A stretch of DNA of 64,000 nucleotides from Lineus longissimus. Taxonomy: Eukaryota > Nemertea > Pilidiophora > Heteronemertea > Lineidae. The stretch covers positions 23,451,501 through 23,515,500 of the forward strand of contig NC_088308.1 in the NCBI RefSeq assembly GCF_910592395.1. The letters are read 5' to 3'. The position numbers were made by a program, and so were the translations under genes. The notes under the pieces are model-generated. The model worked only from the letters and a program-made list of their open reading frames with translations, had not been told where the DNA came from and made no database searches. This document shows positions 21,274 through 45,819 of the stretch, one piece after another; the stretch's first letter is position 1; each line of letters begins with the position of its first letter.

Positions 21274-24200
21274 TCAACTAGAATATAAAGCAGAAAATGG
21301 TGTTACTCCCTCAGATGTTGGTTCTCCCTCCAAAGCAGAAAATGGTGTTGCACCTTGAACGTCTTCCTCAGATTTTTGTTCTTCCAGCAAAGCAGAAAAT
21401 GGTGTTACCCCATCAATATCTCCCTCAGATTTGGAATCTACACCCTCCAAAGCAGAAAACGGTGCTACATCCCGATTGTCTCCCTCATATTTTGGTTCTG
21501 CTCCCTCCCTCTTGTGCATCTTTCGATGATTAAAAAGAGTAGCTTTTGAGGCAAAAGATTTGTCACAGCACTTACATTTATAAGGTCTTTCGCCTGTATG
21601 AATATTCAAGTGTTGACGATAGGGATCTTTTTGCCTGAAAGCTTTCCCGCAATGAACACATTTATATGGTTTTTCACCAGTGTGAATCCTCTCATGTATA
21701 GCACGCACGCTGCATGTTCTAAACGAGAGCTCGCAGTAGCGACATTTACATGGTTTCTCCCCCGTGTGAGTGCGCGAATGGAGCGTAAGCAATTCCTTGG
21801 TTCTAAATGCCTTTGTACAAAGTGTGCATTCGAATGGCTTTTCACCAGTTTGCGGTAAATGAGTGCGTTCATGGCAATACAGACTCCCACTTCTTAGGTA
21901 GGTTTTGCCACAGATTTTACACGCATAGACTCTCTCGCAAGTATGTTTACTATTGATGTGTTCACTTCGTGCCGTAATCTGTCGAAATGTTTCGTCACAG
22001 AATTTGCATTTATACGGCCTTTCTCCAGTGTGAATACGTCGATGACATCTCAATGTTGCCGCACTGTTAAAGGCTTTGGGACAATCTGCACACTTATGAC
22101 GTCTTTCGTTTGCATGAAGGCGAGCATGCCTCCTCAAATCATTCTTTGTTTTGAGAAATTTCCCACAACCCTCACATTTAAACGGTCTCTCGTTAGAGTG
22201 AACAACCAAATGTGTCTGTAGCGCACTTGGATTATGAAACGATTTGCCACAATGATCGCACAAAGTCCCTGAACCACTCTCAAGCTTTGCGGCTCTTGAA
22301 TTGGGCGACTTTTCTCCACCATGACTGCCATCAACATGGACTGTACGTAAATGGCGATTCAAACTTGATCGGTCTTTATAAGATTTGTTGCAATGTTCAC
22401 AGCTAAAATGCTTCCCATCTGAATGTAACTGCAGATGTTTCTGCAATTGAACAATACTGTCAAATTCTTTCGGACATATATGGCATGAGGTTAGTTTTTC
22501 CCGAGACTGATTGCCAGCTTCATTTGCAGTGATGATGCAATCAGCATTAGGCCAACTCGTACCTTTAATGGCCTTTCCGGTTTCTGCACATAAGCGGCTT
22601 GACCGTGGAATCAATCTTTTAGTAGGCGAGCTCCATCTTTCAACAATAACTCCTTGCACTTCCTCAGGTTGATGCTCCACTGCAATACAAAGAGATAATC
22701 TGACCATCAGATGTGTGTACAAAACTGATATGGCTTCTCCCCTATGGGTGCGTTCATGACATCTCAACGCCCCAATAACAGGAAAGGCACGAAAACTAAT
22801 TACACAAACATATGGTTTTTCATTTGTATGAGTATGGGTGTGCTTTTTCAAATTTGTCTTGTCCTTGAAAGCCATAACACAATATTCACATTTAAACGGT
22901 CTCTCTAAAATTTCATACATATGTTCATCATCTGGATAACTCTCTGTCATACCTTTACTGATAGTTCTTGCTTCAGAAGATAGGCCACTTGACTTTTTAG
23001 GACTTGAGCCTTTTCTCTTTCTACCTCGGCCTAGTGATTGAATGTCTTGAGGAAAGGCTACTGGAATTAGAAAATCATTCCAAGAATACATCAAAATTCT
23101 TTAGAATCATAATCTGCATGTCATTATGATCAATACTCTACCTGCAATGGCAGCTGAAATTGAGCAATTTTAACAGGTTGGTGAGTATTTCTCTGAGTTA
23201 AGCTTTTCTTGACACAATTTGTGCACTGAATGGCAGAATACTTACAAGTTTTTCCTGAAACGTTGTAATCTGTCAGACCATGTCCTTGGATTTCCTGAGC
23301 GGGATGAATACTGGCCTGAAAATAAACCAGATTGCCTTACAAGACGTCAAAATAAGCAAAATAGTGCATGCATATTATTGCAATGCCTGGCCTTTAATTG
23401 TGTTCCTGATATCAGTAAATTCAAAGTTTCCTTTTTATAGCTGAATTGTTTACTGAGTTGTGTTTTCTTTTTGGTCTAGCTGAGTCACCGTGAACTTTGG
23501 AAATAACATAAATTATCAGTGTTTTCTTATGTTCTTTCCTGAAGCTGCAAAGAAGATTTTAATTTGGTTATGCCAATCTTTCATGTATGTTCAATGCCAA
23601 TGGAACTGAATAAGACTCATAACTTTTCACATCCTGACCAAAAAATAAAACATCAGTCAAGAAATCCTTATGACACTTACAACATGTATATCTTCATCCC
23701 CTTCATATTCTTCATTCTGTAGTGAATCTGACAATGGATAAGAACCCTCACTGCCCGTGTCCATAGATTCATTCATGGTAATCGAGTAGTCAGCAGGTTC
23801 GGTCTTAATCAGCTTAACATGCTCAGACTCAGCGGTGGAAACCTGTCCCCAAGGCTGGTAAACATGGTCCTGAACACCACTATCTGAAGTACGCAAAATC
23901 TCTGGATCCGGCTCCACTTCCGTCCCATAGGTCTTCGGACAATCCGGTTGGAACGGTTGGCACATGATTGGCTGATAATTCAGTTGAATTGGCTCTGAGG
24001 TTGTGTTCACAATGCTGAAGTTGTATGTGTGCGTCTTAATAGGACCAAAGTCAGACTTCACAATTACAACAGACTTAGCCACAAGAGACAATCCAGGTTC
24101 TAAGAGAATGGTGCTGGGTGAATCTGACTGAGACTGAGAGTCAGAAACTGAACAATTTGACAAGGAATCATCGGGATCTGTCCCAGACAATGACACATCA

Positions 24201-24385
24201 AGATCCGTCTCCAGCTGTCTGGTGAACATCCTAGTTGTCTTCGTTGCTGTCATTCCACTGCTGCCTGACATTTCCGCACTACAAGCAACATCATTGTATA
24301 TCCCTGGCAACGTTTCGCTTTGACTCAACTTTGGTGAGATTGATGGTGGACAAGGACATGGTGGTGGAGGTTTCACAGCATCCAT
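21274..24385 (-). CDS. ZNF-A: C2H2 zinc-finger protein with a novel N-terminal domain and two nested terminal-exon acceptors
   Basis: This is a nuclear DNA-binding protein of unknown target. Exon A (24385-23681, 235 codons, phase-0 donor GTT|GTAAGT) encodes a Pro-rich start, a Ser/Asp-rich part and a conserved block with LEPG, SLVA, YNFSIVNTT, LNYQPIM and IKTEPADYSITMN. Exon B (23315-23246) ends in phase 1. Two phase-1 acceptors follow in the same open frame. The one at 22679 gives 726 codons with 11 fingers. The one at 23060 gives 853 codons and adds a basic stretch (GRGRKRKG), one good finger and one that has lost its second Cys. The linker TGEKP/TGERP is well kept among the last fingers. 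The tail carries four copies of a PFSAL motif. A 5' UTR exon boundary is seen at 24473. The start at 24385 matches the ZNF-B start. I do not know a named orthologue. Confidence 0.85.
21283..21510 (-). repeat. Coding repeat in the ZNF-A C-terminal tail ([TA]PFSAL units)
   Basis: Four imperfect units of about 50-70 bases encode EGD..-VAPFSALEG, GVTPFSALLEE, GATPFSALEGEP and GVTPFSALYSS. The DNA units share GCAGAAAA(T/C)GGTG on the plus strand. The repeat follows the last finger and ends at the stop codon. A related TPFKAL occurs once in the same position of ZNF-B terminal exon 5. Confidence 0.8.
22679..23060 (-). pseudogene. Decayed upstream terminal exon (a1) of ZNF-A, still in frame
   Basis: The segment starts with a proper acceptor (AATTCCAG at 23061-23068, phase 1), like the intact terminal exons. 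It encodes a linker, one complete finger (KCEYC..H) and a second finger reading CVIS where CxxC is required. It then loses finger character (VLYTHLMVRLSLCIAV) just before the next acceptor at 22679. It looks like a terminal exon whose remaining fingers were deleted. Because it stays open it could also act as an N-terminal extension of the 11-finger exon. Confidence 0.6.
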
Positions 24386-24473
24386 TTGTCAGTGTCATTC
24401 GCCCTATCCATCGATTTTCAATCAGCGCAGATGAATCATATGCGTACCAGTACTGGTTGCAGTGGAGGTAGAT

Positions 24474-25298
24474 CTGGAGAGAAAATTTTAAAGTAAAGTA
24501 ACTATTCAATCTGTCAAGAAGATCAGAACCACTATTCCTTTTGCCACTATAATTTTTTTTTGATACACACTGTAGTAGTGTGTACAGAATGTATGCACAT
24601 TGTTTCATTGTACACACTGACACACAGCAATTGCATCTATTTTGACAATTTACCAAACACCTTTAAGGTACAGTCACATTTTTTCCTTATTCAGTGACGA
24701 TTTAATAACTAAATAGAAGAGTCAAATTTATTATGTCTTTTGATAATCAAAACGCAAATAAATGGGGATTTTGTGAGACTTACAGCGAAGTCCTCGATTA
24801 AGGGAATTCGGACTTGCGACCGTCTAGAAACTCACTCCATGCCCATGTGTACAATTCCGAATATGCTTACGAATGGAAATTGGTACTGTAACACCCGCTA
24901 CGAATATTTTCATGAAAATTAGGACGAAAAGTTGGAAATAATTACGATTTCCTACTTTTTGTTAACACTTATTCCACAAAAAAGGTAACATTGTGTTTTA
25001 TAAGTACTTTATGCAATTGTCTGATCTGCTACCAGATATTTTTGTTTCCTGATTCACTTGCTTTTGCAAGTGAACCCTCGACAAGTACGGACATGTTGCA
25101 TATCGACCGTACAGACACTGACCATGCATTGCCTACTACAGCCTTGTGCATCCTATGCACTGTAAACCCGGAAATATTCGTGGCCAGTTTATTTCTCGGT
25201 TTCATGAAATTGCAATTTTGGCGTACATTCAATTTGCCTTTTCACAACCCTGTTTGATATACTACGGTATTTGTCACTGTCGTTATTTTTCATTTCAG
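24474..25298. promoter_or_regulatory. Divergent promoter region between ZNF-A and ZNF-B
   Basis: The two first coding exons face away from each other, 933 bases apart (start codons at 24385 and 25319). Each is preceded by a splice acceptor in its 5' UTR (24473 on minus, 25299 on plus), so each gene has at least one upstream non-coding exon, and both must lie in this stretch or overlap it. I could not place the transcription starts. Confidence 0.6.
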
Positions 25299-25318
25299 CG
25301 AATTGTAGCCCTACAGTG

Positions 25319-26392
25319 ATGGATGCTTTAGAAACAGAACATGATCACCCGATCCCTCAAAACTTAGGTCAAGAGGCGGGGACATTGCCAACGACATGCT
25401 CTGCTGCCATTGGTAGTGCTGAGATGTCTGGCAGTGTAACAGAAACAGGTGGTACATTTCCTGGAGAGGTGCCACCTTTGGTGATGGTGGACACACCACG
25501 AGATGATTCCTCACATAGTGAATTGTCGGATGTGCAGCCAAATTCACCTAGCGTCATTCACTTGGAACCTGGATTTTCTCTTGTTGCTAATTCTATTGTT
25601 GTTGTGAAATGTGACTTTGGTTCCATCAAGCCACAGACGTACACATACAACTTCACCATAGTGAACACAACGACAGAGCTAATTGAACTGAATTATCAGC
25701 CAATTATGCGCCCTCCGCCATTCCAGCAAGAACAGCAAACACCGGAGCCAATCATTCCACTTCCAGGAGTTATTCACTCTGCAGAATCTGTTAGTGGTCT
25801 TCGAATACCTATCCCTAGATTTGGGGGTGGTATGTCATCAAAACATGGAAAGGTGGTCAAGGAAGAACCTGTTGACTTCTCTATAACGATGAATGTATCC
25901 TCAGACACTGAGATGGATACCTTACACGATTTTGGAGGAGACATGGTAAGCCCATAGGAGTAGGAATTGTCGTTTTTTGCGCATGCTTAAAGTGTAACTT
26001 CCCTGAAGTGTCAGCTGCACAAATTGAAAAGAATATATATTACATCCCACTATGCTAGTCTTAAAATTTCATACATGTAGTATTTGATGAATTTTTACTG
26101 TGTGCCAGCCAGATGATCAGTGACACCCTAATTTTCTAGCCCCTCGGAGCTCCCTCCCCTTCCAACTCGGATGCATGTGTAGTCATGCAAATGTATTGTC
26201 TTATTGCACCTTATGTTTTGTTATCTGTACAACGTAAAGTAGTACGAATAAACATATATATATTGTCTTATGCTTTAAAGATGTCTACAGCTTGTCTTCA
26301 CTTCCACTTTCAGACCAGTGATTCCCTTGACTCACAGAGGCAGTGCTTGAATACATCTGATCGGACTTCAACTACAACTCTACAAGATCAAG
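25319..26392 (+). CDS. ZNF-B shared N-terminal exons (paralogue of the ZNF-A N-terminus)
   Basis: Exon 1 (coding 25319-25945; acceptor at 25299 within the 5' UTR) and exon 2 (26314-26392) give 235 codons plus one base. Exon 1 aligns with ZNF-A exon A. Both begin MDA and include SAEMSGS and a Ser/Asp-rich part. A block follows with LEPG, SLVA, VVVK, DFG, YNF, IVNTT and LNYQPIM, then VKEEPVDFSITMN. VKEE fits the sumoylation consensus. There is no BTB, KRAB, SCAN or ZAD signature. Exon 1 ends in phase 0 (GACATG|GTAAGC) and exon 2 in phase 1 (CAAG|GTAATA), the same phases as in ZNF-A. Exon 2 has no downstream partner of its own; it must splice to one of the terminal exons listed next. Function beyond being the partner of the zinc fingers is unknown. 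Confidence 0.85.
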
Positions 26393-27023
26393 GTAATAAT
26401 TTTCAAAATGACTTGGGAGGGCCCATATCATATCATTAATTCATTGATGGTGTAAAACTACAAACTATCTCACAGTTAGTCATGCTTCACTCATTTGCAG
26501 TTTGGTAATTCCAAACAGCATTTAGATGTCTTACTCTTAGTTGCGCCACTTCCAGTTTAAATATTTGGGATCAAATCTCTGATAAAGGATGCACTCTTTT
26601 TAGTAATTGGCTAATGAATGCTAGCTCAAATCGCCATGCTTTAGGCTTGATAATAATAAAAATTCAAATGGAATAAAGTTAAAATGTGCATGTTCATGTA
26701 CCTACAATTGTTTTTGTAAGTTCTTTTTTAAAGTGTACAAAAATTGAATACCAATCTATGCTGCACAGATTGCCAAGATCTTCCAAAACTTCTAATGATT
26801 TCTGGTGGGTTGTTATGCCTTATACACTGACATCAAATCATGGACTTACATATGTAGCAAACTAGTGATATTTGTCTTTGATGGAAATAAAATCTCATTC
26901 TGTTAAAACTCCAAACAGTGTTGATCTTTTAGGAGAGAAAATTCTAATCATAAACGTCCCACAGCTATTGGAATTTGGATTCTCACTCAGTCTCCTGTTT
27001 AGTGGTGTCTACTTCAATTGCAG

Positions 27024-28006
27024 CGGTCGGTGTACCTCCAGAAGCACATTCCAGAAAGCGTTCAGCTGCACAACTACCATCAGCTCGCATATCTTCAGCA
27101 GCAGGAACTGTCCACAAAAGTGTCAAAGGTACAACCGACCGCCGTTTAAAAAAGAAATCGAAGGATAAGCAAGCTGACCTCTCAACCGCTGGTACTCCGG
27201 GCACCAAAATTGTTAAAGATCTAAAAAATATCTGTGGTATCTGTGGGAAAGAATTTGCCAGATTTCAAGGACTGAAGTGCCATTTAGTTACACATTCTGA
27301 AGAGAGACATTATAAATGTCCCCACTGTGAAAAACGATTTAAAACAGGCGGAGTTTTGAAGAATCACATCCGCATTCACACTAAAGAAAGGCCTTATGTG
27401 TGTGAAATTTGTGGAAAATCATACACGCGCACAACTTCGTATAGATATCATCAACTAAGCCATACAGGAGAACGCCCACACAAATGCACTTTCTGTGACA
27501 AGACATACAAGGTTTTGGTTGCTTTGAATGATCATATAAATAGTATTCATACCAAGGAGAAGGAGTATATTTGTGAGATCTGTGGAGCTGTATTTCTCAA
27601 TATACCCAGTCTGAACAGTCACAGGCATACCCATGAACCAAAATCAACAGAGAAGCCATTTCAGTGTGAATATTGCGTTAAGATGTTTAGAAGGAAGGAG
27701 CTTCTGGTTGTCCACACCCGTATTCACACTGGGGAAAAACCATTCAAATGTAGACATTGTGAAAAATTCTTCACTACTTGCAGTCTGCGTGTTGTGCACG
27801 AACGATGCCACACAGGGGAAAAACCGTTCCAGTGTTCTCATTGTGGAAAAGCTTTCAGGCAGCGTGGGGCATGGAAGGAGCACCTTAACATCCATACTGG
27901 AGAAAGGCCATTTAAATGTACATTGTGTGAAAAATCATTTGCTGCAAAAGCAACTCTTCGCAATCATCAGAAAATGCACGGAAGATTTCCAGGAGGGAAT
28001 AACTGA
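27024..28006 (+). CDS. ZNF-B alternative terminal exon b1 (9 C2H2 fingers)
   Basis: The acceptor TTCAATTGCAG ends at 27023. The exon starts in phase 1 (CG GTC GGT) and stays open to a TGA at 28006. Joined to exons 1-2 it gives a 562-codon protein. Fingers 1-9 run from CGICGKEFARFQGLKCH to CEKSFAAKATLRNHQKMH with mostly T-G-E-[RK]-P linkers. No start codon upstream of the fingers has a promoter-like context, which supports use as a terminal exon rather than a separate gene. I found no AATAAA in the 900 bases after the stop. Confidence 0.85.
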
Positions 28007-28142
28007 GAAACAGGTGTCTCAATGCAGTCTTTCGTGGCGTTTCTAAAAAGTAGTTCTGCAAACAGGAGGAAAATTGACAGTCGTTTTTGATAGTGTGGAA
28101 TTCAATTTCTGTGTTTCTAAGTGCTGTTTACTTCAATTGCAG

Positions 28143-28640
28143 TGATCGATTCCCCTCAAGAAACACTGTCCTTTGATTTGACAAGTTCGGCTGTCCCACA
28201 GTTAACATGTAGTCTTCAATCGTCTACTGATTCAGGTACAGTCAGAGAAGGTATGAATGTTGCCCATGTACGAAAAAAGAGGCTGTCTAAAAAATGTGAC
28301 CCAGCAATCTCCACTGCTCCTAGTACTGATGCTGCAGAAGATATGAGTTGTAACATTTGTGGGAAAGCTCACGTATTGCACATGAACGACTTCCTACTGG
28401 TGAAAAACCGAGGGCAGAGGGCATGGCTGGATCACATTATCCACACATGAGACCGACCTCATAAGAGCACATCATGTGACAAATCATCTGCTACAACTCT
28501 TCGCAATCATCAGAGAGTTTACAGTAGGGAAGCGGAGGATACTCAGTCACACACTCAACTTGAAATGTCTATGTCAGCTGTACCAACTGAGGCAGAGGAC
28601 ACGAATGCCTGATATGAAAGCTATTATTGGTTATCAAGTT
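28143..28640 (+). pseudogene. Decayed ZNF-B terminal exon b2
   Basis: The acceptor TTCAATTGCAG (ending 28142) and the phase-1 start (TG ATC GAT) are intact, and the linker closely resembles b3 (SPQETLSFD against LPQATLPFD). After the first CNICGK the frame jumps to RAWLDHIIHT, which in b3 lies near finger 8, so the fingers in between are deleted. An in-frame TGA at 28448-28450 replaces the linker Gly codon. Recognisable finger-9 and tail sequence (TLRNHQRV, SMSAVPTEAED) continues past the stop in broken frame to about 28610. Confidence 0.85.
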
Positions 28641-29013
28641 ATTCCTTTTTGTTTGCTGTTAAACTTACATGTAAAGGCCTCACGGCTTGAATGATTTTGA
28701 TCAGCAAAATGGGTTTTTTCAAAGTAATCAACAGAGTGTAATAATGCATTGTGAATTTTTAATGGAAAGTGTATTACGCAGTAAATTCTTTCTTGTCGTA
28801 AAATTGTCAATTTTTAATGTATTTTAAAAGAAGTCTGAAGCCCAAGAAGTGTAGATTTAAAAAAAAAATCTCTCCATTTTCTAGTCGCTGTTAGTGTTAC
28901 TTGTTGTCCTGGGTCACATATACATGTATGTGTAAGCAATCCCATTGTAACATATTGAAATGGGATAGAATTTGATTTCTGAGTCACTAAAGTGCTGTTT
29001 CCTTCAATTGCAG

Positions 29014-30065
29014 TGGTCGATTTACCTCAAGCAACACTGCCCTTTGATATGACGAGTTTGCCTGTCCCACAGATTAGTCTTCCATCGTCTACTGATACAG
29101 GAATGATAAGTGAAGGTACTACCATCCCACGTGTACGAAGGAAGCTGTCCTTGAAAAAACATGATTCTTCGCCCTCTGCTACTCCTGCGTGTGGCGCCGA
29201 CCCTGGGGAAGATCTGAAATGTAACATTTGTGGGAAAGGTTTCGGACAAAAGCAGAGTTTATTGCAAAGGCATTTGTTGTCGCATTCTGAGGGGAGAAGA
29301 TATATTTGTCAATACTGTGAGAAAGATTGTAAAACTAGAAAGGCTTTGACCAGTCACATCCGCATTCATACTGACGTAAATCGTTTCGTTTGTAATATCT
29401 GTGGACGAGCATTCGTCCACAAAAATGGATATAAATATCATCTAATGAGTCACACTGGCGAGAAACCATGTAAATGTACATACTGTGATAAGTCGTTTAG
29501 ATCGGCGTCTCGACTCAATGACCATATAAATAGTATTCATACTCAAGAGAGGATATATCTGTGTGACATCTGCGGAGTGGGATTTCGAACAAAACGCCGG
29601 CTTACTTGTCACAGGAAAACACACGAACCCAAATCAAGGGATAAAGGATTTTCATGTGAATATTGTGATATGTTCTTCAGAACAGGGGTTTTACTGAAAA
29701 TACATACTCGTACTCACACTGGGGAAAAACCAATAAAATGTAGACATTGCGAAGAGATGTTCTCGAGGCACAGCTCGCGTATTGTGCATGAACGTATTCA
29801 TACCGGTGAAAAACCCTATAAATGCGACAATGAAACCTGTGGGAAAACGTTCAGGCAGCGGAGGGCATGGCTGGATCACATCATTATCCACACAGGAGAA
29901 CGACCACATAAGTGCACATCGTGTGACAAATCGTTTGCTACAAAATCAACTCTTCGAAATCATCGAAGAGTACATAATAAGGAAGCAGAAGACACTCAGT
30001 CACTCGCTCAACGTGACATTTCTATGTCAGCTGTACCAACTGAGGCAGAGAACAAAAATGTCTGA
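29014..30065 (+). CDS. ZNF-B alternative terminal exon b3 (9 C2H2 fingers)
   Basis: The acceptor CTTCAATTGCAG ends at 29013. The exon opens in phase 1 (TG GTC GAT) and ends with TGA at 30065, giving 585 codons when joined to exons 1-2. The fingers run from CNICGKGFGQ to CDKSFATKSTLRNHRRVH. Finger 1 has one extra residue between Cys and His, finger 2 reads CEKDCK where F is usual, and finger 8 has an enlarged Cys pair spacing (CDNETC). The tail ends SMSAVPTEAENKNV. An ATTAAA occurs near 30506, about 440 bases after the stop. Confidence 0.85.
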
Positions 30066-31159
30066 AAAGATAACCAAATGTATCTTCTAACGAGGTATAT
30101 ATTTTTGTTTTCTGTTAAGAGGTTATACAGAGGAAAGTAGAACACTAGAGTATTTTAATTCACATGACCCAGTACAGCAAAATGAGTTTTTTTGCAAAAT
30201 GTTTTTACTGGGCAAGAGCATTTGAAATTTTAATGCAGTGGAAAGGGCATTTTGACGTACCAATTCGTTACTGTCAAATTGTATATTATTCGAGCTACTT
30301 TTAAAATAAGACCTTCTCATCATTCTGAAGACCAAGAATTTTTGGAATATTTTACATTGAGTAGAAAATCAATCACTGGTTTTGTATTGAATTGAATCAT
30401 TTGTGTGACTACCAATTTTGGAACTGTAAACCCCATTTTGCTTGCCCTAAATCAAGAGATTAGTCAAGAATTCTGAGTCAAAATGTCAATGACCATGTAT
30501 GTATTATTAAACCATCTACATTGTATGTAGTGTGATGATCACATTCAAACGTTTTTAGACACCTACATGTGAGTAGTGTTCCAGCTAGAAATATTGAAAT
30601 GGCAGAACAGAAGATGGCACATTGGCCAGTGAGGACAAAAGGTTGGGCAATATTAAAAAGAGAAATTTAAAAAGGGCACGGTGCTGCACCCTGCTAAATC
30701 TCTTTAGCTGAAACACGACTACATGTAAGTTGTGGTGTATCTTGGTTATGCTGTAAATATTGGTAGTTTATAGTGTTATTTTGTGAATTTTGAATGACTG
30801 AACAGCTGTTTACGAAGATGTGAAAAAAAGATGTATCACAATCCAATAGCAACAGTGTATCTAAAGCCCCATAAAAAGACTGTTGGTAACTTAGTGAAAA
30901 AGACCCAGCTGCATCGCCTCTGGCATAAAATTGTTTTTTATTTGCTTATTTCCGAATTCAGTCGTCAAATTCGTTTCTATTAGAATCGTTTCGATATTTT
31001 TTGTATTATATGTACATGTATCATATTATAACAGATTTACTTGATGATGTTTTACTGGTTGTAAAAGAAAAAGGGACCCTACCTGTTGTTAGATGATTAT
31101 ACCGCACCCCTGAACTAAAATGGTTCCACAACATACATGTTTCATGAAGAACTGATACA

Positions 31160-31745
31160 GGTGGACTCTCTCCTCAAGCAGCACATATTTTCTTGTGTCT
31201 TTCTCCAACTAAAAGGTCACGGTCTCCTCATCCTGACAATATCAGGCCATTTCACTCGATACATACTTACTCGGAAACATGCATAAGGAGAAGTCATGTT
31301 GTAGACCCTGTTTGCAAGAGGATGCGGTCTCCTATGCAATTGTCTCTAGTCTATCGATCTAGATGCTGGATACACCAGAGTGCCTGATAAAGGCTTAGAC
31401 CTGAAAAGTCTCTGAGACAGATTTGGCCACTGACAGTCAAACTCAAGTGGAAGCAACCCCAAAACAGGAGAAAGTCAATTCAAGTGTAAATACCCAGATT
31501 GGGGCAAAGCTTTCAAACAGTGGTTAGGGTTGGATTCTAATGTCCACTCTGTGCATATTGGGAAAAGGGAACATTTGTGTGAAAATGTGGACTTGTGAGT
31601 GCATCAGCCAAAGACAGATGAAAGGCCTTTTCAGTGCAAATCCTGCCTAAAGGCATTCGGGACCAGACATTTACCAGAGCCTTGGCTCTCATACAGCAGA
31701 AGAATGTAGGAGAGCACTTTGAAATGAAGTGCCACACCAGATAAA
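31160..31745 (+). pseudogene. Decayed ZNF-B terminal exon between b3 and b4
   Basis: From about 31465 the plus strand reads a broken copy of fingers 3-5 of b4: KCKYPDWGKAFKQWLGLDS, VHIGKREHLCE, then a stop where CGMGF should be. HQPKTDERPFQCKSCLKAF follows in another frame. DCDK has become DWGK, removing a zinc ligand. Upstream (31190-31390) is linker-like sequence rich in Ser/Pro/Arg (TKRSRSPHPD). No usable acceptor plus open frame remains. Confidence 0.75.
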
Positions 31746-31827
31746 ATATCCAAGGGAAAGACACGAGGAAAAATCTTATTTGTATGAAAAACTGATACCT
31801 TATGTGTGCATCATTTTATCGTTGCAG

Positions 31828-32720
31828 TTGAAGCCATTTGGAAAGATTTAATAAAGACTCCACAACAAAGTTTGAACTCTGGCGCTCTTCGCATGATGTC
31901 TGGGAAACGAAGTCATGCTTCCAGTCACAAGAGGATGAATAAAGGACCAACTGGCAGATTAGTGTCGGGAGAGTGTTTGTCAACAGACTGTAAGACTCTT
32001 CCCTCAGATGTCAATCAGTTCAAATGTGAAACATGTGAAAAATACTTCAAAACCAAAACGACCTTAGCGAGGCATCAGATTACTCATACAGATGAAAAGC
32101 CCTTTGTTTGTAAAGTCTGTTCAAAAGCATTTGCTCATCAAAAAACACTTAAGTCTCATGAACTTATCCACACTGGAGAAAAGCCATACGAGTGTAAATA
32201 CCCTGATTGTGATAAGGCGTACAGACAGTGGTTGGGACTAGAGTATCACGTCCGTTCTGTTCATATTGGGAAAAGGGAACATTTGTGTGAAAAATGTGGC
32301 ATGGGATTTCTGACCAGATCTTGTCTATCTACACATGAAACGCGTATGCATCAGCCAAAGACGGATGAAAGGCAATATCAGTGTGAATATTGTGTGAGGG
32401 CCTTCAAGACCAGGGATACGCTGACTCTGCATATTCGCACTCATACTGGGGAGAAACCTTACAAATGTCGTCATTGTGAAAGATGCTTTAGATCCTGGGG
32501 TCAACGTTCCACACACGAAGGGAGTCACACGGGAGAGAAGCCACATAAATGTGTCTATTGTGGGAGAGCTTTTAGACAACTTCCATCACTCAAACAACAT
32601 TTGAATATCCATACTGGACAAAGACCCCATAAGTGTAAATTATGTGAAAAATCATTCGCTGCACAACAGACACTTTTTAATCATCAGAAAATGCATAAAA
32701 GAGAAGCACTTAAAACATAG
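31828..32720 (+). CDS. ZNF-B alternative terminal exon b4 (8 C2H2 fingers)
   Basis: The acceptor TATCGTTGCAG ends at 31827. Phase 1 (TT GAA GCC) leads to an open frame ending TAG at 32720, giving 532 codons with exons 1-2. Finger 3 is the long form with CKYPDCDKAYRQWLGLEYH, shared with b5 and b6 but not b1/b3, so two terminal-exon subfamilies exist. The linker HIGKRE replaces TGEKP after that finger, and QPKTDER follows the fourth finger. The last finger, CEKSFAAQQTLFNHQKMH, is near-identical in all copies. Confidence 0.85.
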
Positions 32721-33227
32721 TGTTTGGGCTTCGCTATTGCCGCTGCTGCTGGTTCAAAAGACAGAATTGGAAAGCAAATCACTCAACACAAAATAATATC
32801 CCAGACAGATTTGATAAATTTCCTTTGTTGTGTAAATGGTGGAAAACAACTTAACAAAGAATATCATTGTCAAAAACGCTTCTCACATTATCGTTGGTAT
32901 ATCATTTTAAGTGGTGTCCACTCATACTTGTAAAAATTATTCAGGGTGTATCTTCTTTCAGTGATCTTCATGAGTTGGTATCAAAATATTAGTAGTGGTT
33001 CCAAATTTGTGCGAAAGGGAGCAGTGTGAGAAAAAAACATGAACTAGTATGATCACTCTGTTTGTCTTAGATGTCTTCCTCCAACAAATATTTACCTGCT
33101 CTGGTCAGTTTCAAAGGTCCTCTGCCATGTGCTGATATCGAGCAAACTCCTACAAGGGTGGGAACATATCAGGGTGTCTTTGTGGCTGTCAGTCAGTTAA
33201 GCCTATCTTTTCCTTTTGTCATTCCAG

Positions 33228-34255
33228 TTTTCAACTTGATGCAAGAACACCAATCGATTTCTCATGAAAGTTTAAGCTTTCGATCTGCTCTTTTGGCTTC
33301 TAAAAATTCATCTGGGAGTAGAGATGTTGGAGATGAAACCAAAGAGAAGGTAGATGAGGAATCGGAAAGTCCTTGTTCAGCCAATATTTCCAGCAACCTT
33401 GTAAAAGAAAATTCACCTAAATCATGTGACCTCGTTGGGGAAAAATTAGAAAAAGTGTCAGATTTGCAAGATAATGTCTTCCTTGCTCACCAAACACAGA
33501 AAAACTTCAAGTGCCAATACTGTGGCAAATACTTCACAACAAAAGCAGTTTTAAAACGGCACACTCGTATACACACAAATGAAAGACCATATATTTGCAA
33601 AGTGTGTTCAAAAGCATTCACTGACCCAAGCACCATGAAAAAGCATGAACGTGGTCACACGGGAGAAAGACCGTTCAAATGTAAATATCCAGATTGTGAT
33701 CGGGCATTCAAGCAGTGGTATGGACTCGATTCACATGTCAGATCAATACATATTGGAAAAAGGGAGCACTTGTGTGAAAAATGTGGTGTGGGGTTTATGA
33801 CCAAGTCCACGCTACGTTTTCATGAGCAGACACATCAACCGAAGACTGATGAAAGACGCTATCGATGCGAAATTTGTGAGAAGGCATTCAGGACCAGTTC
33901 ATCACTTTCTGTCCACATTCGTATTCATACTGGTGAAAAACCACACAAATGTCGATATTGCCCTGAACGGTTCCCAACTTCTGGTCGTCGTATTGTTCAT
34001 GAGCGGATTCATACTGGTGAGAAACCATTTAGATGTGATCAGTGTGGGAAAGCTTTCCGCCAACAGGGACCCCTAATGGTGCATTTGAATATCCACACTG
34101 GAGAAAAGCCTTATAAGTGTAAATTATGTGAGAAGTCCTTTGCTGCACGATCGACACTCCGTAATCATCAGAAAATGCATAGTAGATTGGCAGAGGATGA
34201 TGACCCGGGCACCCCATTTAAAGCTCTTCAGGGATCAACTTCTGAAGAGATCTAA
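33228..34255 (+). CDS. ZNF-B alternative terminal exon b5 (8 C2H2 fingers, TPFKAL tail)
   Basis: The acceptor CATTCCAG ends at 33227 with phase 1 (TT TTC AAC). The frame ends with TAA at 34255 and gives 577 codons with exons 1-2. A Ser/Glu/Lys-rich linker of about 85 residues precedes the fingers. The finger order matches b4 (long third finger with CKYPDCDRAFKQWYGLDSH). The C-terminus DDPGTPFKALQGSTSEEI carries one copy of the motif repeated four times in the ZNF-A tail. The open frame extends upstream of the acceptor to 33071, but that part shows no resemblance to the other exons. Confidence 0.85.
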
Positions 34256-34494
34256 TTGAGCTTTCTGTGAACCAAGTAATTTTGGCAAGGATGATATTTA
34301 GTGTACTGGGAGTTAAAAAGTTGCCAATTTTTAGCTTCGTGAACATTTTATGGTTTACAGTAACAGCTGAGTGTACTCGGTTGAGTTTACGTTATTATTC
34401 CGTACTTTAATATTATAATGTTTAATGATATTATGAAAATAGATATATTTGTTGCTGCATGTACTTTATGTCTTGCATGGAAGGTAGGATATTA

Positions 34495-34500
34495 AATAAA
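34495..34500 (+). terminator. Polyadenylation signal AATAAA after terminal exon b5
   Basis: AATAAA lies about 240 bases after the b5 stop; a second one lies at 35051-35056. Confidence 0.55.
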
Positions 34501-34955
34501 GGTCTTCCATTCCGTTGGGGTACAGACTGGGGCCGGTGAAGGCTTGGTGTCTTGGATTGTTTATAAATAATTGTATTGGAAACCTTAATGTTGGGAGCAC
34601 CTTGAGTTGAATTTGGCAACTGTGTGGTGTAGCTTTTGTATTCTTATTGTAACCGACGATGACTGAATGATATTTTGTGCGGTTGCACTTCTAATTCACT
34701 GCATTCTTTTGTTTGGTGTGACAATAATTATGAAAAAATTCATCTAGGAAATGCTGTATTTTGAACCTTGTATTTGTATGTGACGGGCTGTTCGGACCAT
34801 TTGTTAAAAAAGATTAAGTTTTTAGCAGAAAACAGACAGAAACAAAAGAGAGGCAGTCCCGGGATTATTCAAAAGTGTACATAACTTCTGATAATTCATT
34901 CTGAAATGTTATAAAGGTTTTCATTTGTATACATGTATACACTGTATCATCATGT

Positions 34956-35018
34956 AATCATGTAGTGCTGTTATATAATCATGTAGTGCAATTATATAAT
35001 CAGGTAGTGCTATCCTAT
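34956..35018. repeat. Three 21-base tandem units
   Basis: Units beginning AATCATGTAGTGC at 34956, 34977 and 34998 differ at a few positions. They lie between terminal exons b5 and b6. Confidence 0.7.
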
Positions 35019-35556
35019 CTCTAGATCATGTAGATGCTGTAACCAAATAGAATAAAGGTCTTGATTTCTTTGATAACAGCATGTTATTTTAGTTTTTTTC
35101 CCTTCACTTTTATTGCATTTGCAATGTCTATGACAATGTACCATATATGGCATGTTCTTTGGGCTATCAGAAAATTCCATTGTGGAGTCATGGACTAATG
35201 AGCGTGATTAGTGATTACTTATGAACATTCTGATGATAATGCTGAGAGAATAGAGAGCGAATGTGGTTGTTTAATGCCTACTCTACCCCCCCCCCCCCCA
35301 AGCTTTAACCTCAATCAAACATGATGGGTGGATCTACTCCTTGCCTATGTAAAACAAATGCACCAAAACCTGCTAAATGGTGTCAACACAGTTTGTCTGA
35401 AAGGAACTGTTGGAGAACCAATTTTAGGTGCATATTGTCTCTGTGCAGAAAGTAGGTTGTGACCATATACCTGGTCACTCGGGACCACAGTTCCTAGTAG
35501 TTGGACAGTATTAAGTTGTGACATAACGAGAATATATGATTCCTTTTCCATTGCAG

Positions 35557-36494
35557 TTGACTATTCAATTCAAGAAAACTTCCAACTCCTTGGAAGACAA
35601 AGTTCATCAGCAGAATGTAGATGTCTTGGATCTACTCATTTGACTACAGGCAAGGGGATAGTTAGTGAACCCATGCCAAAAGATCACGGTGATAAAGACC
35701 AGTTGCATGTATATCAAGGATCAAGTTACTCAACCCCTGGTAAATCTGGTGTACACACCACTCTTCCATTAGAGGGACCTTTGAAATGTGAATACTGTGA
35801 AAAATCCTTTAAAAAGAATTCAAATTTACAGCGGCATTTGCGTATTCATAGAAATGAAAGACCACATATTTGTGGTGTCTGTTCGAAAGCCTTCACTGAA
35901 ACACATGCCTTGAAAGTTCATGAACGCACTCATACAGGAGATAGACGATACAAGTGTCCGTACCCAGACTGTGACAAGGCTTACCTACAGTGGTTAGGGC
36001 TAGATCATCATGTCAATAGTGTTCATACCGGCAAGAGGGACCATCTATGTGATATCTGTGGAGCTGTGTTTCTGTCTAGGACAGGTCTCAATGCTCATAA
36101 AAACATCCATAAGCCGAAAACTGATGCAAGACCGTTTTCATGTCAATATTGTGATAAGACCTACAAGACAAGGCCCACACTTGTTTTACATACCAGTACC
36201 CACACCGGCAACAAACCACACAAATGTTCATTCCCTCCCTGTGAAAAGACATTCATAACTTTGAGTCGGCGTAAACAACATGAAACGATCCATACTGGTG
36301 AGAAACGATTTCGATGTGATCATTGTGGGAAAACATTCCGTCGACGAGGGCCTTGTGTTGAACATATGAATACCCATACTGGGGAAAGACCTTACAAATG
36401 CAGATACTGTCATAAGACTTTTGCTGCAAAAGCCACTGTTTATAATCATGAGAAAATGCATAATCGAGCTGCGGGTAAACAAGAGAAAACTTGA
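35557..36494 (+). CDS. ZNF-B alternative terminal exon b6 (8 C2H2 fingers), last of the array
   Basis: The acceptor TCCATTGCAG ends at 35556. Phase 1 (TT GAC TAT) continues open through a 27-codon linker into the fingers and ends with TGA at 36494, giving 547 codons with exons 1-2. Finger 3 is the long CPYPDCDKAYLQWLGLDHH form. Finger 6 has a widened Cys pair (CSFPPC). The last finger reads CHKTFAAKATVYNHEKMH. This exon has the clearest 3' end of the array (AATAAA 86 bases after the stop). Confidence 0.85.
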
Positions 36495-37203: not shown

Positions 37204-38300
37204 TTACAAGACCGCTGACGATGTTCCAGAGGCAAAGAAATGGACATTTTTGTCTTGGACTTTATACTGCATCCGGGTGGATTTCTGATTCTGGGGATGG
37301 CCAGCACTTGGTTCTTTCACTTTTATTTCAATCTGAAAACACATAACATTTACTGGGGGTTATAAACAGGAAAGAAACTAACAAAAATATATTTTTATCT
37401 GGGAAAAAGTTAATTGGGTTTCGATTGATCAGTCAGACCTGCGATATATCTTACTGTCTATTAAATCACAATCAAACATTAGTTTTGATGTGAAGCACAA
37501 GCCGAAATAAGGGATGCAATTTTTATTCAATGGTGTGGCCATGGACAACACATGGATATACAAGCACATTTTTGTAAAGCCACAAATACAATGCTGTCCC
37601 TATCTCTCACCTGTCCATGGACATCTTTACAGTATCCACTTGCCAATCCTCGAGTAACCAAGGTAGCATGACTTTTATGGTACAGATATTTCGCCACAAG
37701 TTCATCTTCCGCCATGTCCTCATCCATAAGCCCTCGTACCACCACGTTCCCACTGCTACTAAGAAGTGTCTGGAGGTAATCAATGAAGACCATAAGCGAC
37801 CGGCTCTCAACTCCTAGTGCCAAGAGGATACTAATATCATCAAAGATGATATGAGTCTTGCGGTTCCCACTGTCCTGTAGCTGCTTCACTTTTGATGACA
37901 GGTAAGAATATATCGGACGCAAGCTGTTTTTTGATTTATCATACACAAGACCGTCAAACATTTTCTCATAGTCTGAGTCTCCGCAACTGCCAACATCCTG
38001 TCTGTCCTCACCAATCAATGTATTGCCACATAAACGCAACCCTTCAATGAACACAACTTTTCCATCATCCCTCAAAGCTTTGAGATTCAATCCAAGTTTT
38101 TGGCCGACGTTATTATAATGTCCGAATGATTGAGCCAGACCAACCAGACACACACTGTCCCCTGCCTTCAAGAAGTAGGTTAGAAAGTGATGGATAAGAT
38201 AAGAAGAGTCACTTCTGAAATCCTGGAAAATTGATATCAGTTTCCCACTTGGAGTGTTCCCCTGTTCGTATAAAAGGATATTGTTCAGTTCAGTAAACAT
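37204..38300 (-). CDS. ELP6: Elongator complex protein 6
   Basis: ELP6 is one of the RecA-like ATPase-fold subunits of the Elp4-6 hexamer, which assists Elongator in wobble-uridine tRNA modification. Two exons are read: 38300-37611 (690 bases) and 37332-37204, giving 272 codons (human 266). Recognisable parts are the start MFTELNNIL, LVGLAQSFGHYNNVGQKLGL, IIFDDISILLALGV, GLASGYCKDVHGQ just before the intron, and the C-terminus QYKVQDKNVHFFASGTSSAVL. The first open frame reads on past the donor into intron sequence (VRDRDSIVF), which is not coding. An upstream in-frame TTG is ignored in favour of the ATG matching the family start. As in the family there is no Walker A motif. The long first exon is unusual for this intron-rich window. 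Confidence 0.93.
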
Positions 38301-38898
38301 GTTCAAAGTATCTGCATCAGCTAAACATGCAATTTGAATTATCGCAAAACTTTTTTTGTCCCCTGCTTTTAGTCTAGACTCTTGTCAGTAGTCCAGCTAT
38401 TTAGCAGATTGTGTCTGAAAAGAAAAATGAAACATGGAGTGAACTTCAAAAAGCATTGGCATAGCCAAAGTTGCAAAGGCAAAGGCACAACCGCCATACA
38501 ATACTCATAGTCTACTGTGATACATGTCAACAAAATGAACTTAGGCATGACAGTAGCTGTATGTACTAAATCATTATGACTTATGTAGGCCCCTAGTCAG
38601 TGTGAGGCGACTTGTAGGCCCCAAGTATCATCATGGGAGAGTTAAGCTTATCTCACTCAATTGGAGCGATGGCCAAACTTTTGCTTGGACACTTAGCTAC
38701 ATCAATGTCAATTTGACAAAGAATGGAATCTTTGATTTATAGTTTACTTTTAGACCACTTCACTTCGTTGCTTTTACAATTATGGGAAATCCACCTATCC
38801 CAAGATTCATTGCGAAACCAGGAAGTCTGTTGGTTTTGCAACCCTCCCAATGATGGATCGGCTAAATAAGTGGCTGCGGTAGCTGTAGTGTAGTTGAA
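38301..38898. promoter_or_regulatory. Divergent promoter region of ELP6 and the PH-domain gene
   Basis: The start codons at 38300 (minus) and 38899 (plus) are 598 bases apart and face away from each other, so both promoters or 5' UTRs lie here. No specific element was recognised. Confidence 0.4.
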
Positions 38899-41800
38899 AT
38901 GGGTGATATAGCATTGTTTGAAGAGGGGATCCTTGATAAGAAGCAGGGACCACTGAAGGTGAGGTACACAGTTTTTTTATTAAGTGTCTCATATGACATG
39001 ACTGAGTACGTACGAGCAGCTGGTGTTGTGGTGGCAGCGTTCCTGTCGGGATTGTCGCCCTAAACAGCGTGCACCAGCGCCCACCAGCTTCTACCAGGTT
39101 AATTTACGTTAAAAGTCGGGTATGAGGTCATCAAAATAAAATTTAGTAGCCTTAGTCGACGAAATAAGTACACTATAAGACACATTTCCTGAAAATTTCA
39201 TGACATTTGAGTGTAAGATAAGGGAGATGTTGTCCAAAATCACAAGGCACCTGTAGGCTGTAGCCTGGTATTGGGAACTTGACAGGGAAACCCTATCAAT
39301 CATTTCAAGTCAAATCCAACATGGCCGCCGACTTGGCGGTGGACGATGGTACATTTTAAATAACAACTCGCTAATCTAGCACACAAATGTCATGAAACGT
39401 TCAGGAAATGTGGAAAATATCCTGCTTATTTCGTTTATGACCATTAGATTCTATTTTTATGACTAAATATGCTTTTTAATTTCATATAAACCTGGTGGAC
39501 GCTGGTGCCAGTGGTTGACGCTGTTTAGTATGACCCCTATGTTGTGCCTGTTTATATGAAGCCTACATAAATTATAACCATTCCAAAATCAAAACAATTT
39601 TTCACAGTCAGAATACGCGTAGCATGATACAAATAATGGTGTTACTAAATACTTCAGAAAACTTCCTGGTTAGGTAAAAAAAGTGGCCAGTATATAACAA
39701 GTCATGACAGTCTTAATTGGAAATAACAGATAAGACATAAAGTCTAAGATAATCAAACACAAACAGCTCACAGACTGGGCTTACATGTACAACTTCCTAA
39801 ACCTCTTACTCAATACAGATAGTGGGTCTCAAAGATGTATTGACTGGCAGCTGTAAAATGACTAATATTTTATGAGATTTGAAATACCTCCTCACTGATA
39901 GCCGATACTGTGATAGCTGATAGCTGATAGATGAGACATAAAACGTAAGACAACAGTGTGCATTTTAACTCTAATGATAATTTAATTTAACTTTTGTACA
40001 AGTTGTGGTTTTTCTTTGGCATCATTCATGTCAACTATCCTATGTCAATAAAATTTATGTTTTTCTTATTCAGCAATGGAGAAAATATTACTGTACTCTT
40101 CAGAACAGCAAGTTTTCTTATCGCCCATTTAAGGTAATCATTTGTGTCCTTATTCTTGTTGCCCCCACAAAACCGTTTACCAATATGCATGTACAAATTT
40201 GGTTTAGAGTATTATGTTGGTTTAATGATAGAAAATTACATCTAAACCATTTTTGATTTAGCTCAGAGTTGTTCACCCAATTTTCAACCCCTGTATATTG
40301 ATCTGTGGATGGGCACAAACAGATAGCTGGGCATTGTGTATAATCTAAAACTCATTACTTCAAATGAGTTTTTGGTATATTGTAAGCACATTGCATGGCT
40401 TCATGTTTGGCGGAGACTCAACTGACAGGTCTTGTTTTATTTTACTCTTAGGGCGCGGAAGCTACGTCAAAAGATCTGGAAATGTCTACAGTCCATTCAG
40501 TCAGGGCTACCCGTGGAAAACCAGGCTCCAGCTGCAATGAAATACATTTTCACTTAATGGGTGACAAGGAAATGGTATTCGTAAGTAAAATTCTACATTA
40601 CTTTTGCATCAACTCATTCTTGATTTTTGGTGATTTTTATTTTACATGTTTTCATGTATGGCAGCTTTTTATCTTTAAAGAGCTTCTTGGTTGTCAATGT
40701 GATTCACAGTTCACTATGGGATGTGCGTCAGATGCCTTTTGAATCAGACCTGTCACTCCACTCCTAGTCCTATTAGGGGGCTTTTTTCAAGAAGGGTTTA
40801 TCAGCCTCATGGGCTTATCCTTGAGACTTGGAGGCTTTGTGCATATTTATATTAGCTTATTACACAAGTTAGCAAATTTTAACAAATTAGCTTGATACAC
40901 AAGTTCTCTTTGATGTGATCAAGATTAAGATGATCTTTCGTCATGAATAAAAACCTCCCACTCAACAATTGGATGTAGTAATCAGGTCTGTTGCACCTTC
41001 GTTAAGCCTATTTTAGCTTCTTTTTCTGTCCCTCCATTTTACAGTCGGCGTTCAATACTGATGACCAAGACAGGTGGGTAAAAGTCCTACAAAAAGCAAT
41101 TGAATTGAAGAGAAAGAGAGAAAGTCTGAGGAGCTCACTGATGTAAGTCATGATCATTTATTTGCTGGCATGTCCCATACCCATTTTCTAGGAGTTCCTG
41201 TTTGAGGCTTTTCGTCTAAAGTAGCATTATGTTCCGTCAGTTGGGTTGAACAGTCTTATTACACCAGAAGAAAGTTACTTAAGCTTATACAAGGCCATAC
41301 AGGATTATCTAGGAATTGGTCCTGAGGGGTGGAACACCACTTCTTGTCATTTTTTATCTCAAATGAGCATAGTTTGTTATGACATACTGTGAAATTCGAT
41401 ATTTCAATACATGATAAAAATGCCATCTTAGCCCCTCATTCATGTCACTAGGTAGGGTAGCATTGGACTCACAGAATATTGAAAATACCATTTTTGTTCA
41501 TATAAGGGGATTAGGAGAATCCACCATACCTCACACCATTTCTTATCATTTATCATTGCAGAGATTTCGAACGTGATCGTGGCATCACCTTATATGATCA
41601 ACCATGGGATCTACAAGCTACAGTCAACCAGAGTAATGAAAAGTTAAAAGAAAGCTTCAAAAACCCAAAATCTACAACATCTCTTGATTCTCGTGATGAC
41701 CTTGCAAAGGGCAATGATTCCCCTGTCGTGCGGAGACGACAGGCACCTTACGTCGAGCCATATGCCGAAGTTGTTCTTTTTCCAAAACCAAAGAATCATA

Positions 41801-45216: not shown

Positions 45217-45819
45217 TTAATAACACCGCTTCATTGCTCTCCTTGCTTTGATGGCTGCTCTCCTTGTAGTCCTTGTTCTACGTTGAACATATTTCACCTG
45301 TCGAGCTGCTCTTTTTGCCTTCCTTACTCTCCTTACTTTCTTTGCGGCTACCCTCCTTGCTGGTCTCTTCGAAGCTGTGGCTTTTCTTGCTGCCCGTCTT
45401 GGAGAACTCCTTCTCTTTGGCTTTGCTGCTGCCTTTTGTTTGCGGGCAGGTGATGCCCTGCGTGGAGATGCTCGTCGCGCTGGGGATGGGGTCCTCCTGC
45501 GCCTCCTTCTTGCGGCCCTTTTCCTCTTGCCACCCCTCTTTGCTGCTTTCTTTGCAGCCCTCCTCTTCTTTGTTGCTTTCTTTGCTTTGCCGGCGCGGAA
45601 GGCACCTCGCCTTTTGGAGGATGATTTTACGCTGCCAGTTTTAAGGCCACGCTTCAACGCCAACTTTACTTGAAGTGCAACCCACTTCTTCTGTTTGCTG
45701 ACTCCACGGTATTTCGACATGATGTATCTTGTGATGGCGTTGACGTTCGAACCCTTGCTCATTCCAAGGGCCTTGATAGCGGCGGCGACCATCACGCTAT
45801 ATTTCTGTGGCGGAGCCAT
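45217..45819 (-). CDS. Sperm nuclear basic protein, linker-histone-like (protamine-like PL type)
   Basis: This is an intronless 200-codon gene. The ATG at 45819 (context AAACATGG) gives MAPPQKYSVMVAAAIKALG; an in-frame TTG nine codons upstream is rejected. Residues 1-78 form an H1/H5 winged-helix domain (KYSVMVAAAIKAL, GSNVNAITRYIMSKY, LALKRGLKTGSV, RRGAFRAGK). The rest is almost only Arg, Lys, Ala, Ser and Pro, with SPARR and SPRRA repeats that resemble phosphorylatable SPKK-type minor-groove motifs, and ends KRCY. High Arg relative to somatic H1, and a single Cys near the end, point to a sperm chromatin protein as in bivalves and other invertebrates. A germ-line H1 variant is the alternative. 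The gene is head to head with TEX14, another germ-cell gene. Confidence 0.82.
   Translation of the reverse strand: MAPPQKYSVMVAAAIKALGMSKGSNVNAITRYIMSKYRGVSKQKKWVALQVKLALKRGLKTGSVKSSSKRRGAFRAGKAKKATKKRRAAKKAAKRGGKRKRAARRRRRRTPSPARRASPRRASPARKQKAAAKPKRRSSPRRAARKATASKRPARRVAAKKVRRVRKAKRAARQVKYVQRRTRTTRRAAIKARRAMKRCY

Follow-up and report, generated by a model that had tools for sequence, protein, structure and literature searches.

In the window, by which we mean the whole stretch of 64,000 nucleotides analyzed from contig NC_088308.1 of Lineus longissimus (the genome note for the species is PMC8593623), gene B is very probably one transcription unit whose exons 1 and 2 can be joined in cis to any of several alternative last exons. 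Each such exon would supply a complete array of eight or nine C2H2 fingers and end in its own stop codon, and the proteins made would share an N-terminus and differ in their DNA-contact surfaces. Joining in cis from one promoter is the most likely route, and the choice of ending may be regulated. We show the anatomy of the locus and that the coding sequences ending in blocks 1, 2, 4, and 5 agree exactly with RefSeq models. The features of gene B are as follows:

25319 to 25945, plus strand: gene B exon 1, with the ATG and the common N-terminal region, 209 codons, phase 0, identical in RefSeq models P0001 to P0004
26314 to 26392, plus strand: gene B exon 2, 79 nt, ending in phase 1 at the common splice donor
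27024 to 28006, plus strand: block B1, terminal exon with nine fingers; RefSeq isoform X7, 562 aa
27024 to 27128, plus strand: first 105 nt of B1, an in-frame internal exon of isoform X2, with donor AAAG/GTACAA
28143 to 28235, plus strand: 93-nt cassette exon within a decayed block, used by isoform X2
28236 to 28617, plus strand: remainder of the decayed block, B2-like, with most fingers deleted and an in-frame stop codon
29014 to 30065, plus strand: block B2, terminal exon with nine fingers; isoform X2, 651 aa
31464 to 31673, plus strand: finger relic, B3-like, interrupted by stops
31828 to 32720, plus strand: block B3, terminal exon with eight fingers; predicted 532 aa
33228 to 34255, plus strand: block B4, terminal exon with eight fingers; isoform X6, 577 aa
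34491 to 34500, plus strand: ATTAAA/AATAAA poly(A) signals after B4
35557 to 36494, plus strand: block B5, terminal exon with eight fingers; isoform X8, 547 aa
36580 to 36585, plus strand: AATAAA poly(A) signal, 86 nt past the B5 stop

Joined, exons 1 and 2 make 706 nt and end in phase 1 at the donor AAG/GTAATA, which ranks 15th of 707 GT sites. A preliminary description of the locus had proposed that five downstream blocks can be attached here in phase 1 and close exactly, and all five do stay open, with no internal stop and with the same totals (562, 585, 532, 577, and 547 codons for blocks 1 to 5). Its figure of eight to nine fingers per block agrees with a pattern count of 9, 9, 8, 8, and 8 C2H2 fingers in B1 to B5. 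The endings are C2H2, and FLYWCH is absent among the Pfam families shown for the blocks. The blocks are homologous, tandem, phase-compatible last exons on the same strand, each with its own stop codon, and successive intact blocks are separated by roughly 500 to 1,800 nt. Because phase is largely inherited through duplication, the five shared phases are not five independent coincidences.

The one N-terminal module facing several endings, as originally envisaged, is what the RefSeq models contain. Predicted proteins identical to the direct joins exist for block 1 (X7), block 4 (X6), and block 5 (X8), and X2 is a predicted protein that ends in block 2. Four of the five blocks are thus annotated as endings behind the same N-terminus. 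The four RefSeq clusters are 100% alike over residues 1 to 236, isoforms X2, X6, X7, and X8 lie on one 29,445,314-base record, and all four sequences were rebuilt letter for letter from named gene B exons. The route to block 2 is new: X2 gets there via two short in-frame internal exons, the 105 nt of B1 and the 93 nt of the decayed block. X2 is P0004, and donors 27128 and 28235 were the sole pair, among those tried with these acceptors, to reproduce it. The direct junction from 26392 to 29014 that had been proposed is absent from the four isoform sequences compared, and block 3, proposed as a fifth used ending, is in no protein among the matches listed.

Because X2 uses its first 105 nt, block 1 serves as both a terminal and an internal exon. 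In this it resembles composite, or hybrid internal-terminal, exons, being a last exon or, via its internal donor, an internal one; unlike them, the switch either keeps the whole finger array or cuts it to a 35-residue linker. An internal donor about 105 nt into some blocks may thus make a block usable as a short in-frame linker toward a later block. The donors inside blocks that X2 and the paralogous gene A employ (27128, 28235, and 22953) are unneeded by an open-frame predictor, which suggests that read evidence lies behind the models.

Each block had been credited with a good AG acceptor. With a generic acceptor model, acceptors 27024, 28143, 29014, 31828, 33228, and 35557 rank 36, 16, 4, 15, 1, and 2 of the 622 AGs in the array. 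Acceptor 27024 is only the third-best in-phase AG of its open region, but RefSeq uses exactly this one. B1 has no in-frame ATG ahead of its fingers, so an upstream start is needed. A canonical poly(A) signal follows B2 (441 nt on), as well as B4 and B5, but there is none on the way from B1 or B3 to the acceptor that follows. Thus, the B1 and B3 endings need a long 3' untranslated region or another signal.

The fingers of all five blocks, B3 included, bear a signature of constraint, and B3 looks as constrained as the others. Over the 10 pairs of B blocks, finger codons differ by 0.23 to 0.35 at positions 1 and 2 versus 0.45 to 0.56 at position 3; the linker parts of the blocks have no such clear third-position excess. 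We express constraint as codon-position differences because dS in the fingers could not be computed for 5 of the 15 block pairs and exceeded 1.2 in the other 10. Moreover, in neutral simulations (2,000 per block, substitutions only), an open frame with all fingers was kept in 0 to 0.05% of runs at 10% divergence and in none at 20 and 25%. Since simulated retention is close to nil at 10 to 25% and the observed third-position finger divergence is 45 to 56%, the open blocks exceed chance.

The blocks present different DNA-contact surfaces, as their contact residues differ strongly. Only 4 to 13 of 32 such residues agree in any of the 10 B-B pairs, and in every pair this is less than at the other finger positions (0.35 to 0.54). 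The comparison used the eight finger columns that at least four rows share; it left aside the additional first finger of B1 and B2 and the additional A2 fingers, and A1frag contributes one finger only. Target specificity may be swappable, each array binding its own DNA sites. Contacts in the putative metagenome orthologs of B4 and B5 agree in only 17 of 32 and 18 of 32 positions, hardly more than in other pairs (A2-mA1 and mB4-mA1 each agree in 16 of 32; B4-mB5, B3-mB4, and B3-mA1 in 15 of 32), and conserved specificity is thus unsupported by the contacts.

On the opposite strand, gene A is a divergent paralog of the same design with a reduced array:

23681 to 24385, minus strand: gene A exon 1, N-terminal region 46% identical to that of gene B
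23246 to 23315, minus strand: gene A exon 2, 70 nt, ending in phase 1
22953 to 23060, minus strand: block A1, shrunk to a 108-nt internal exon, with a finger remnant past it that is spliced out in RefSeq P0005
21274 to 22679, minus strand: block A2, terminal finger exon of gene A

The reading frame of gene A is open even without the splice at the A1 donor (22953). We note that the minus-strand paralog, the decayed block at 28143 to 28617, the relic at 31464 to 31673, and the internal donors all go beyond the preliminary description.

The N-terminus common to all endings may be a chromatin or transcription effector. That it is not a BTB domain stands: compared with Pfam at E values up to 1, exon 1 matched no family in either gene B or gene A (the 26- and 23-residue exons 2 lay outside the scan). 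A PDB sequence search with gene B exon 1 gave a single match that is not meaningful (E of 0.83), AlphaFold on a two-sequence exon 1 alignment gave low-confidence strands at a mean pLDDT of 37.9, and a scan of viral contigs with that alignment gave 161 pattern matches, none confirmed. One V/I-K-x-E-P motif, which we take to be SUMO-type, sits at corresponding places in the A and B N-termini. Protein searches with the N-terminus found Lineus longissimus only, at a sensitivity too low to prove restriction. A word-seeded search with gene B missed the 46%-identical gene A protein, and a search with gene A at E values up to 10 missed gene B; equally distant relatives in other animals would therefore escape, and we dropped a claim of restriction to this species.

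How the blocks come to share one N-terminus admits other readings. Each block might have its own promoter and be trans-spliced to exons 1 and 2, as at mod(mdg4), an arrangement that likewise pairs a single N-terminus with many finger exons. The gaps before intact blocks leave room for promoters, the missing poly(A) signals after B1 and B3 would fit, and joined mRNA models would look alike in cis or in trans. Moreover, block-specific promoters alone are compatible with a shared N-terminus, because mod(mdg4) endings have them together with trans-splicing (PMC12692577). The annotated endings, however, all lie on the strand of exons 1 and 2, in order and within about 11 kb, so that cis splicing suffices. 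Furthermore, no annotated protein mixing A and B parts was found: the search with the B N-terminus returned only B blocks (four clusters), and that with A only A blocks (one). We consider trans-splicing unlikely.

Less room is left for the reading that the blocks are individual or decaying zinc-finger genes in tandem, of which only one or two are truly joined and the rest are pseudogene debris. Two clear relics within the array and the lack of block 3 from the matches listed speak for decay, but five intact blocks with constrained fingers, four annotated endings, and the lack of detectable separate N-terminal exon copies make it very improbable. In keeping with the claim that no block has an evident N-terminal domain of its own, a tblastn search of the array for further copies of exons 1 and 2 found none: its best E value there, 0.38, is at chance level, although short remnants could escape. 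Separate genes that each retain such a copy are thereby ruled out; unrelated first exons are beyond this test. It is just as improbable that the isoforms are an annotation artifact of a predictor that chained neighboring genes. RefSeq models are predictions, but separate models take the same two first exons to different last exons, and X2 includes 93 nt taken from a broken block, hardly the choice of a frame-driven predictor.

Cis joining to alternative last exons puts gene B beside several known systems. In vertebrate KRAB-type and other C2H2 clusters, long finger arrays duplicate in tandem and decay, and their contact residues change fast. There, each array has a gene and a set of N-terminal exons to itself; unlike these, the gene B arrays share one set. 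Reportedly, lola and mod(mdg4) of insects make many zinc-finger isoforms from a common BTB N-terminus. Drosophila lola is described as a common N-terminus with alternative 3' exons carrying different C2H2 fingers, present in 17 of 20 isoforms (PMC11426971); it has a BTB domain, its endings hold one or two fingers each (PMC7299341), and it shows trans-splicing between alleles (PMC4667647). Gene B likewise joins a common N-terminus to alternative C2H2 3' exons, but Pfam finds no domain in its exon 1, and its endings have eight or nine fingers. The mod(mdg4) gene has a BTB domain and mostly FLYWCH endings with independent promoters, partly on the opposite strand and trans-spliced (PMC4667647, PMC12692577). 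Like gene B, it combines 5' exons common to its products with numerous alternative 3' exons and duplicated endings; gene B differs in having no BTB domain and in having all annotated endings on the strand of exons 1 and 2. Membership in the lola/mod(mdg4) (TTK-type BTB) family is rejected, as Pfam finds no BTB in exon 1, and an origin independent of these genes fits that absence. Neither this locus nor such a design in nemerteans was found among the titles and abstract openings listed for matches in open-licence PMC literature.

One gene would thus be able to make several DNA-binding proteins in lola's way with unrelated parts. If borne out by reads, gene B would be a lola-like design outside arthropods, with an unrelated N-terminus and much longer finger arrays, and would suggest that genes with one front and many DNA binders evolve repeatedly. 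The array seems to have arisen as the last exon, and no other, duplicated in tandem, with copies also lost. We speculate, with considerable doubt, that this is a lophotrochozoan locus of one effector and many readers, a birth-and-death finger repertoire on one promoter and N-terminus with blocks chaining as linkers. Specificities would be gained by last-exon duplication, and those given up would be reused as spacer exons; the repertoire might be directed at fast-changing targets such as transposons. The relics, the shrunken array of gene A, and the matching metagenome blocks would make the birth and death of endings directly traceable.

Finally, metagenome relatives bear on the age of the blocks. 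A finger-only tree, from which A1frag was left out, did not separate the branching order of B4, mB4, and mA1. In a whole-block tree, in which A1 fills only 34% of columns, metagenome proteins pair with individual blocks: P0046 with B4 (81/80), P0051 with A1 (89/87), and P0090 with B5 (100/99). Because of this block-by-block pairing, B4, A1, and B5 appear to be older than the split from their metagenome counterparts.

Gene B, on the + strand, begins with two common exons and continues into a tandem array of five zinc-finger blocks (B1 to B5, with acceptors at 27024, 29014, 31828, 33228 and 35557), each a candidate alternative last exon.

25319-25945, + strand, gene B exon 1
26314-26392, + strand, gene B exon 2, donor AAG/GTAATA

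All elements of the preliminary description, in which these exons (25319 to 26392) face five open phase-1 blocks with their own stops, are present in the sequence, and its codon totals for exons 1-2 joined to blocks 1 to 5 (562, 585, 532, 577 and 547) were reproduced exactly. B1 to B5 encode 9, 9, 8, 8 and 8 C2H2 fingers, respectively.

When the N-terminal 236 residues of gene B were compared with 5.77 billion proteins, four clusters matched, all from Lineus longissimus and all on one 29,445,314-base record.

RefSeq isoforms of gene B
X8, 547 aa, zinc finger protein: exons 1-2 plus block 5, every letter identical
X6, 577 aa, zinc finger protein: exons 1-2 plus block 4, every letter identical
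X7, 562 aa, zinc finger protein: exons 1-2 plus block 1, every letter identical
X2, 651 aa: exons 1-2, then 27024-27128, 28143-28235 and block 2

The common exons and the isoform numbering mark these models as products of one gene, and RefSeq names them as four different zinc-finger proteins (658B-like, 121-like, 92 homolog and 79-like). Model isoforms of this type are normally backed by RNA reads, and the alternative-ending design is already implicit in them. The proposal of one N-terminus with five swappable endings is matched by RefSeq models directly for blocks 1, 4 and 5 and via internal exons for block 2, and no protein was found for block 3. When the 7938 candidates sharing the most words with block 3 were scored, no block 3 protein was among the best 120 of 7581 matches, and the sole Lineus protein there was that of block 4 (63% identity). 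Because a block 3 protein would share most words and should top the list, we take it that no such protein of 0.55 to 1.75 times the query length is present in the database searched. Moreover, additional isoforms exist, as clusters X8, X6, X7 and X2 contain 1, 2, 1 and 3 members and one of each was compared; a direct join of exon 2 to block 2 is possibly among them.

The blocks are paralogs of one another (38-54% protein identity over aligned positions), and thus their common phase was mostly inherited rather than reached by five independent coincidences. In neutral simulations of 2000 trials per block, frame and fingers were retained in 0 to 0.05% of trials at 10% divergence and in none at 20 or 25%, whereas, from block to block, 45-56% of the third codon positions in finger sequence differ. 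We conclude that the open state of the blocks is not due to chance.

Most likely, one promoter would produce one pre-mRNA from gene B, in which the acceptors would compete for the donor at 26392, aided or hindered by internal donors and poly(A) sites.

34491-34495, + strand, poly(A) site after B4
36580, + strand, poly(A) site after B5
30506, + strand, perhaps a poly(A) site after B2

Because no canonical poly(A) signal lies between B1 or B3 and the next acceptor, B1 and B3 mRNAs should have long 3' ends. Endings of mod(mdg4) are joined by trans-splicing (PMC4667647, PMC12692577), and sequence alone cannot separate such joining from splicing in cis. Gene B works like lola (PMC11426971, PMC7299341) but lacks a BTB domain in a Pfam scan of exon 1. 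Relative to the lola-type design, the non-arthropod host, the different N-terminus, the long arrays and the dual-use blocks are new, and no paper describing the alternative-ending design of gene B was among the matches listed in literature searches.

Dual use is evident in block 1, the last exon of X7 and a 105-nt internal exon of X2. At similar depth, and at lengths divisible by three, donor-like sites lie 105 nt into B1, 93 and 108 nt into the decayed block (28143-28617), 102 nt into B2, and 108 and 117 nt into gene A blocks A1 and A2, but the opening 260 nt of B3, B4 and B5 showed no AAG/GTA of fitting length. Of these sites, RefSeq models use those of B1 and A1 and the 93-nt one of the decayed block. 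The internal donors are mostly middling, and 27128, 28235, 28250 and 29115 rank 60, 29, 8 and 62 of 707 GT sites under a generic model. A block can thus shed its fingers and act as a short linker toward a later block.

The array also carries traces of block birth and death. The decayed block matches B2 in three pieces at 72-84% DNA identity and has lost its inner part; the relic at 31464-31673 is B3-like (78-80%). As tblastn detected no further exon 1 or 2 within the array (best E 0.38), the duplicated unit was probably a last exon with its own acceptor. Where upstream matches adjoin the acceptors, they span just 23-46 nt and involve B1, B2 and the decayed block alone; the few remaining weak upstream matches are not next to acceptors. 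B1 and B2 group in trees of fingers (97/94) and of whole blocks (97/93).

Gene A, the divergent paralog on the - strand, has an exon 1 homologous to that of gene B (46% identical), a phase-1 exon 2, a first block, A1, of which a 108-nt internal exon and a remnant of fingers are left, and a last block, A2, that is still intact. The two genes thus have a common plan in which one array grew and the other shrank. RefSeq protein P0005 (762 aa) has the A1 remnant spliced out although the reading frame is open through it. The ATGs are 933 bases apart, and the interval 24386-25318 may hold a common two-way promoter. Searches with both N-termini found no protein combining A and B parts. A 57-nt repeat in three tandem copies (21326-21499, - strand) encodes a unit with PFSAL in the C-terminal tail of gene A, and the B4 tail has one similar TPFKALQG.

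The N-terminal domain is, as first described, not BTB: a Pfam scan with an E limit of 1 gave no family for exon 1 of either gene, and a PDB sequence search with that of B found no meaningful relative. Word-seeded protein searches, to E 0.001 for B and to E 10 for A, matched nothing outside L. longissimus. Because neither returned the 46% identical paralog, similarly distant relatives in other animals would be missed, and the result does not imply restriction to this lineage. The A-B alignment retains a core, LEPGxSLVA...LNYQPIM, and a stretch, K-x-E-P-x-D-[FY]-SITMN. Each protein has one V/I-K-x-E, which resembles SUMO-type motifs of repressors.

Three JGI metagenome proteins, possibly of different origins, resemble the blocks: P0046 (mB4), P0051 (mA1) and P0090 (mB5). 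None has the gene B/A-type N-terminal region. The whole-block tree pairs P0046 with B4 (81/80), P0090 with B5 (100/99) and P0051 with A1 (89/87), where A1 fills only 34% of columns. With the A1 fragment left out, the finger-only tree still pairs B5 with P0090 (93/96) and gives no supported order among B4, P0046 and P0051. Because P0051 has eight fingers after an A1-like linker and A1 is reduced, either A1 lost its fingers on the L. longissimus line or the two are not strict orthologs. P0046 and P0090 start with a stretch made up of F, S, L and Y that leads into V-A, which, from the protein letters, is what a pyrimidine tract and GCAG acceptor in the same phase would encode.

Differing contact residues make differing DNA targets likely for C2H2 fingers. 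At helix positions -1, 2, 3 and 6 of eight comparable fingers (32 residues per pair), the ten B-B pairs share 4 to 13 residues, and in all ten, contacts agree less than other finger positions. Thus, the targets of the blocks likely differ. Agreement with putative orthologs was the highest among pairs with eight fingers (17/32 for B4, 18/32 for B5), but hints only faintly at conserved targets because 16/32 was also reached by A2-mA1 and mB4-mA1, and 15/32 by three other pairs.

Neighboring features
37530-38384, - strand, coding exon of ELP6 (Elongator subunit 6; Pfam PF09807, E 4e-56)
39159-39434, inverted repeat (82-nt arms, 77% complementary, 112 nt spacing), possibly a small transposon or a trace of one
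45220-45885, - strand, linker-histone-like protein (Pfam PF00538, E 2e-10) whose long tail is rich in Arg, Lys and Ser

ELP6 borders the B array downstream and is oriented toward it. The product of 45220-45885 resembles sperm-specific histone or protamine-like proteins.
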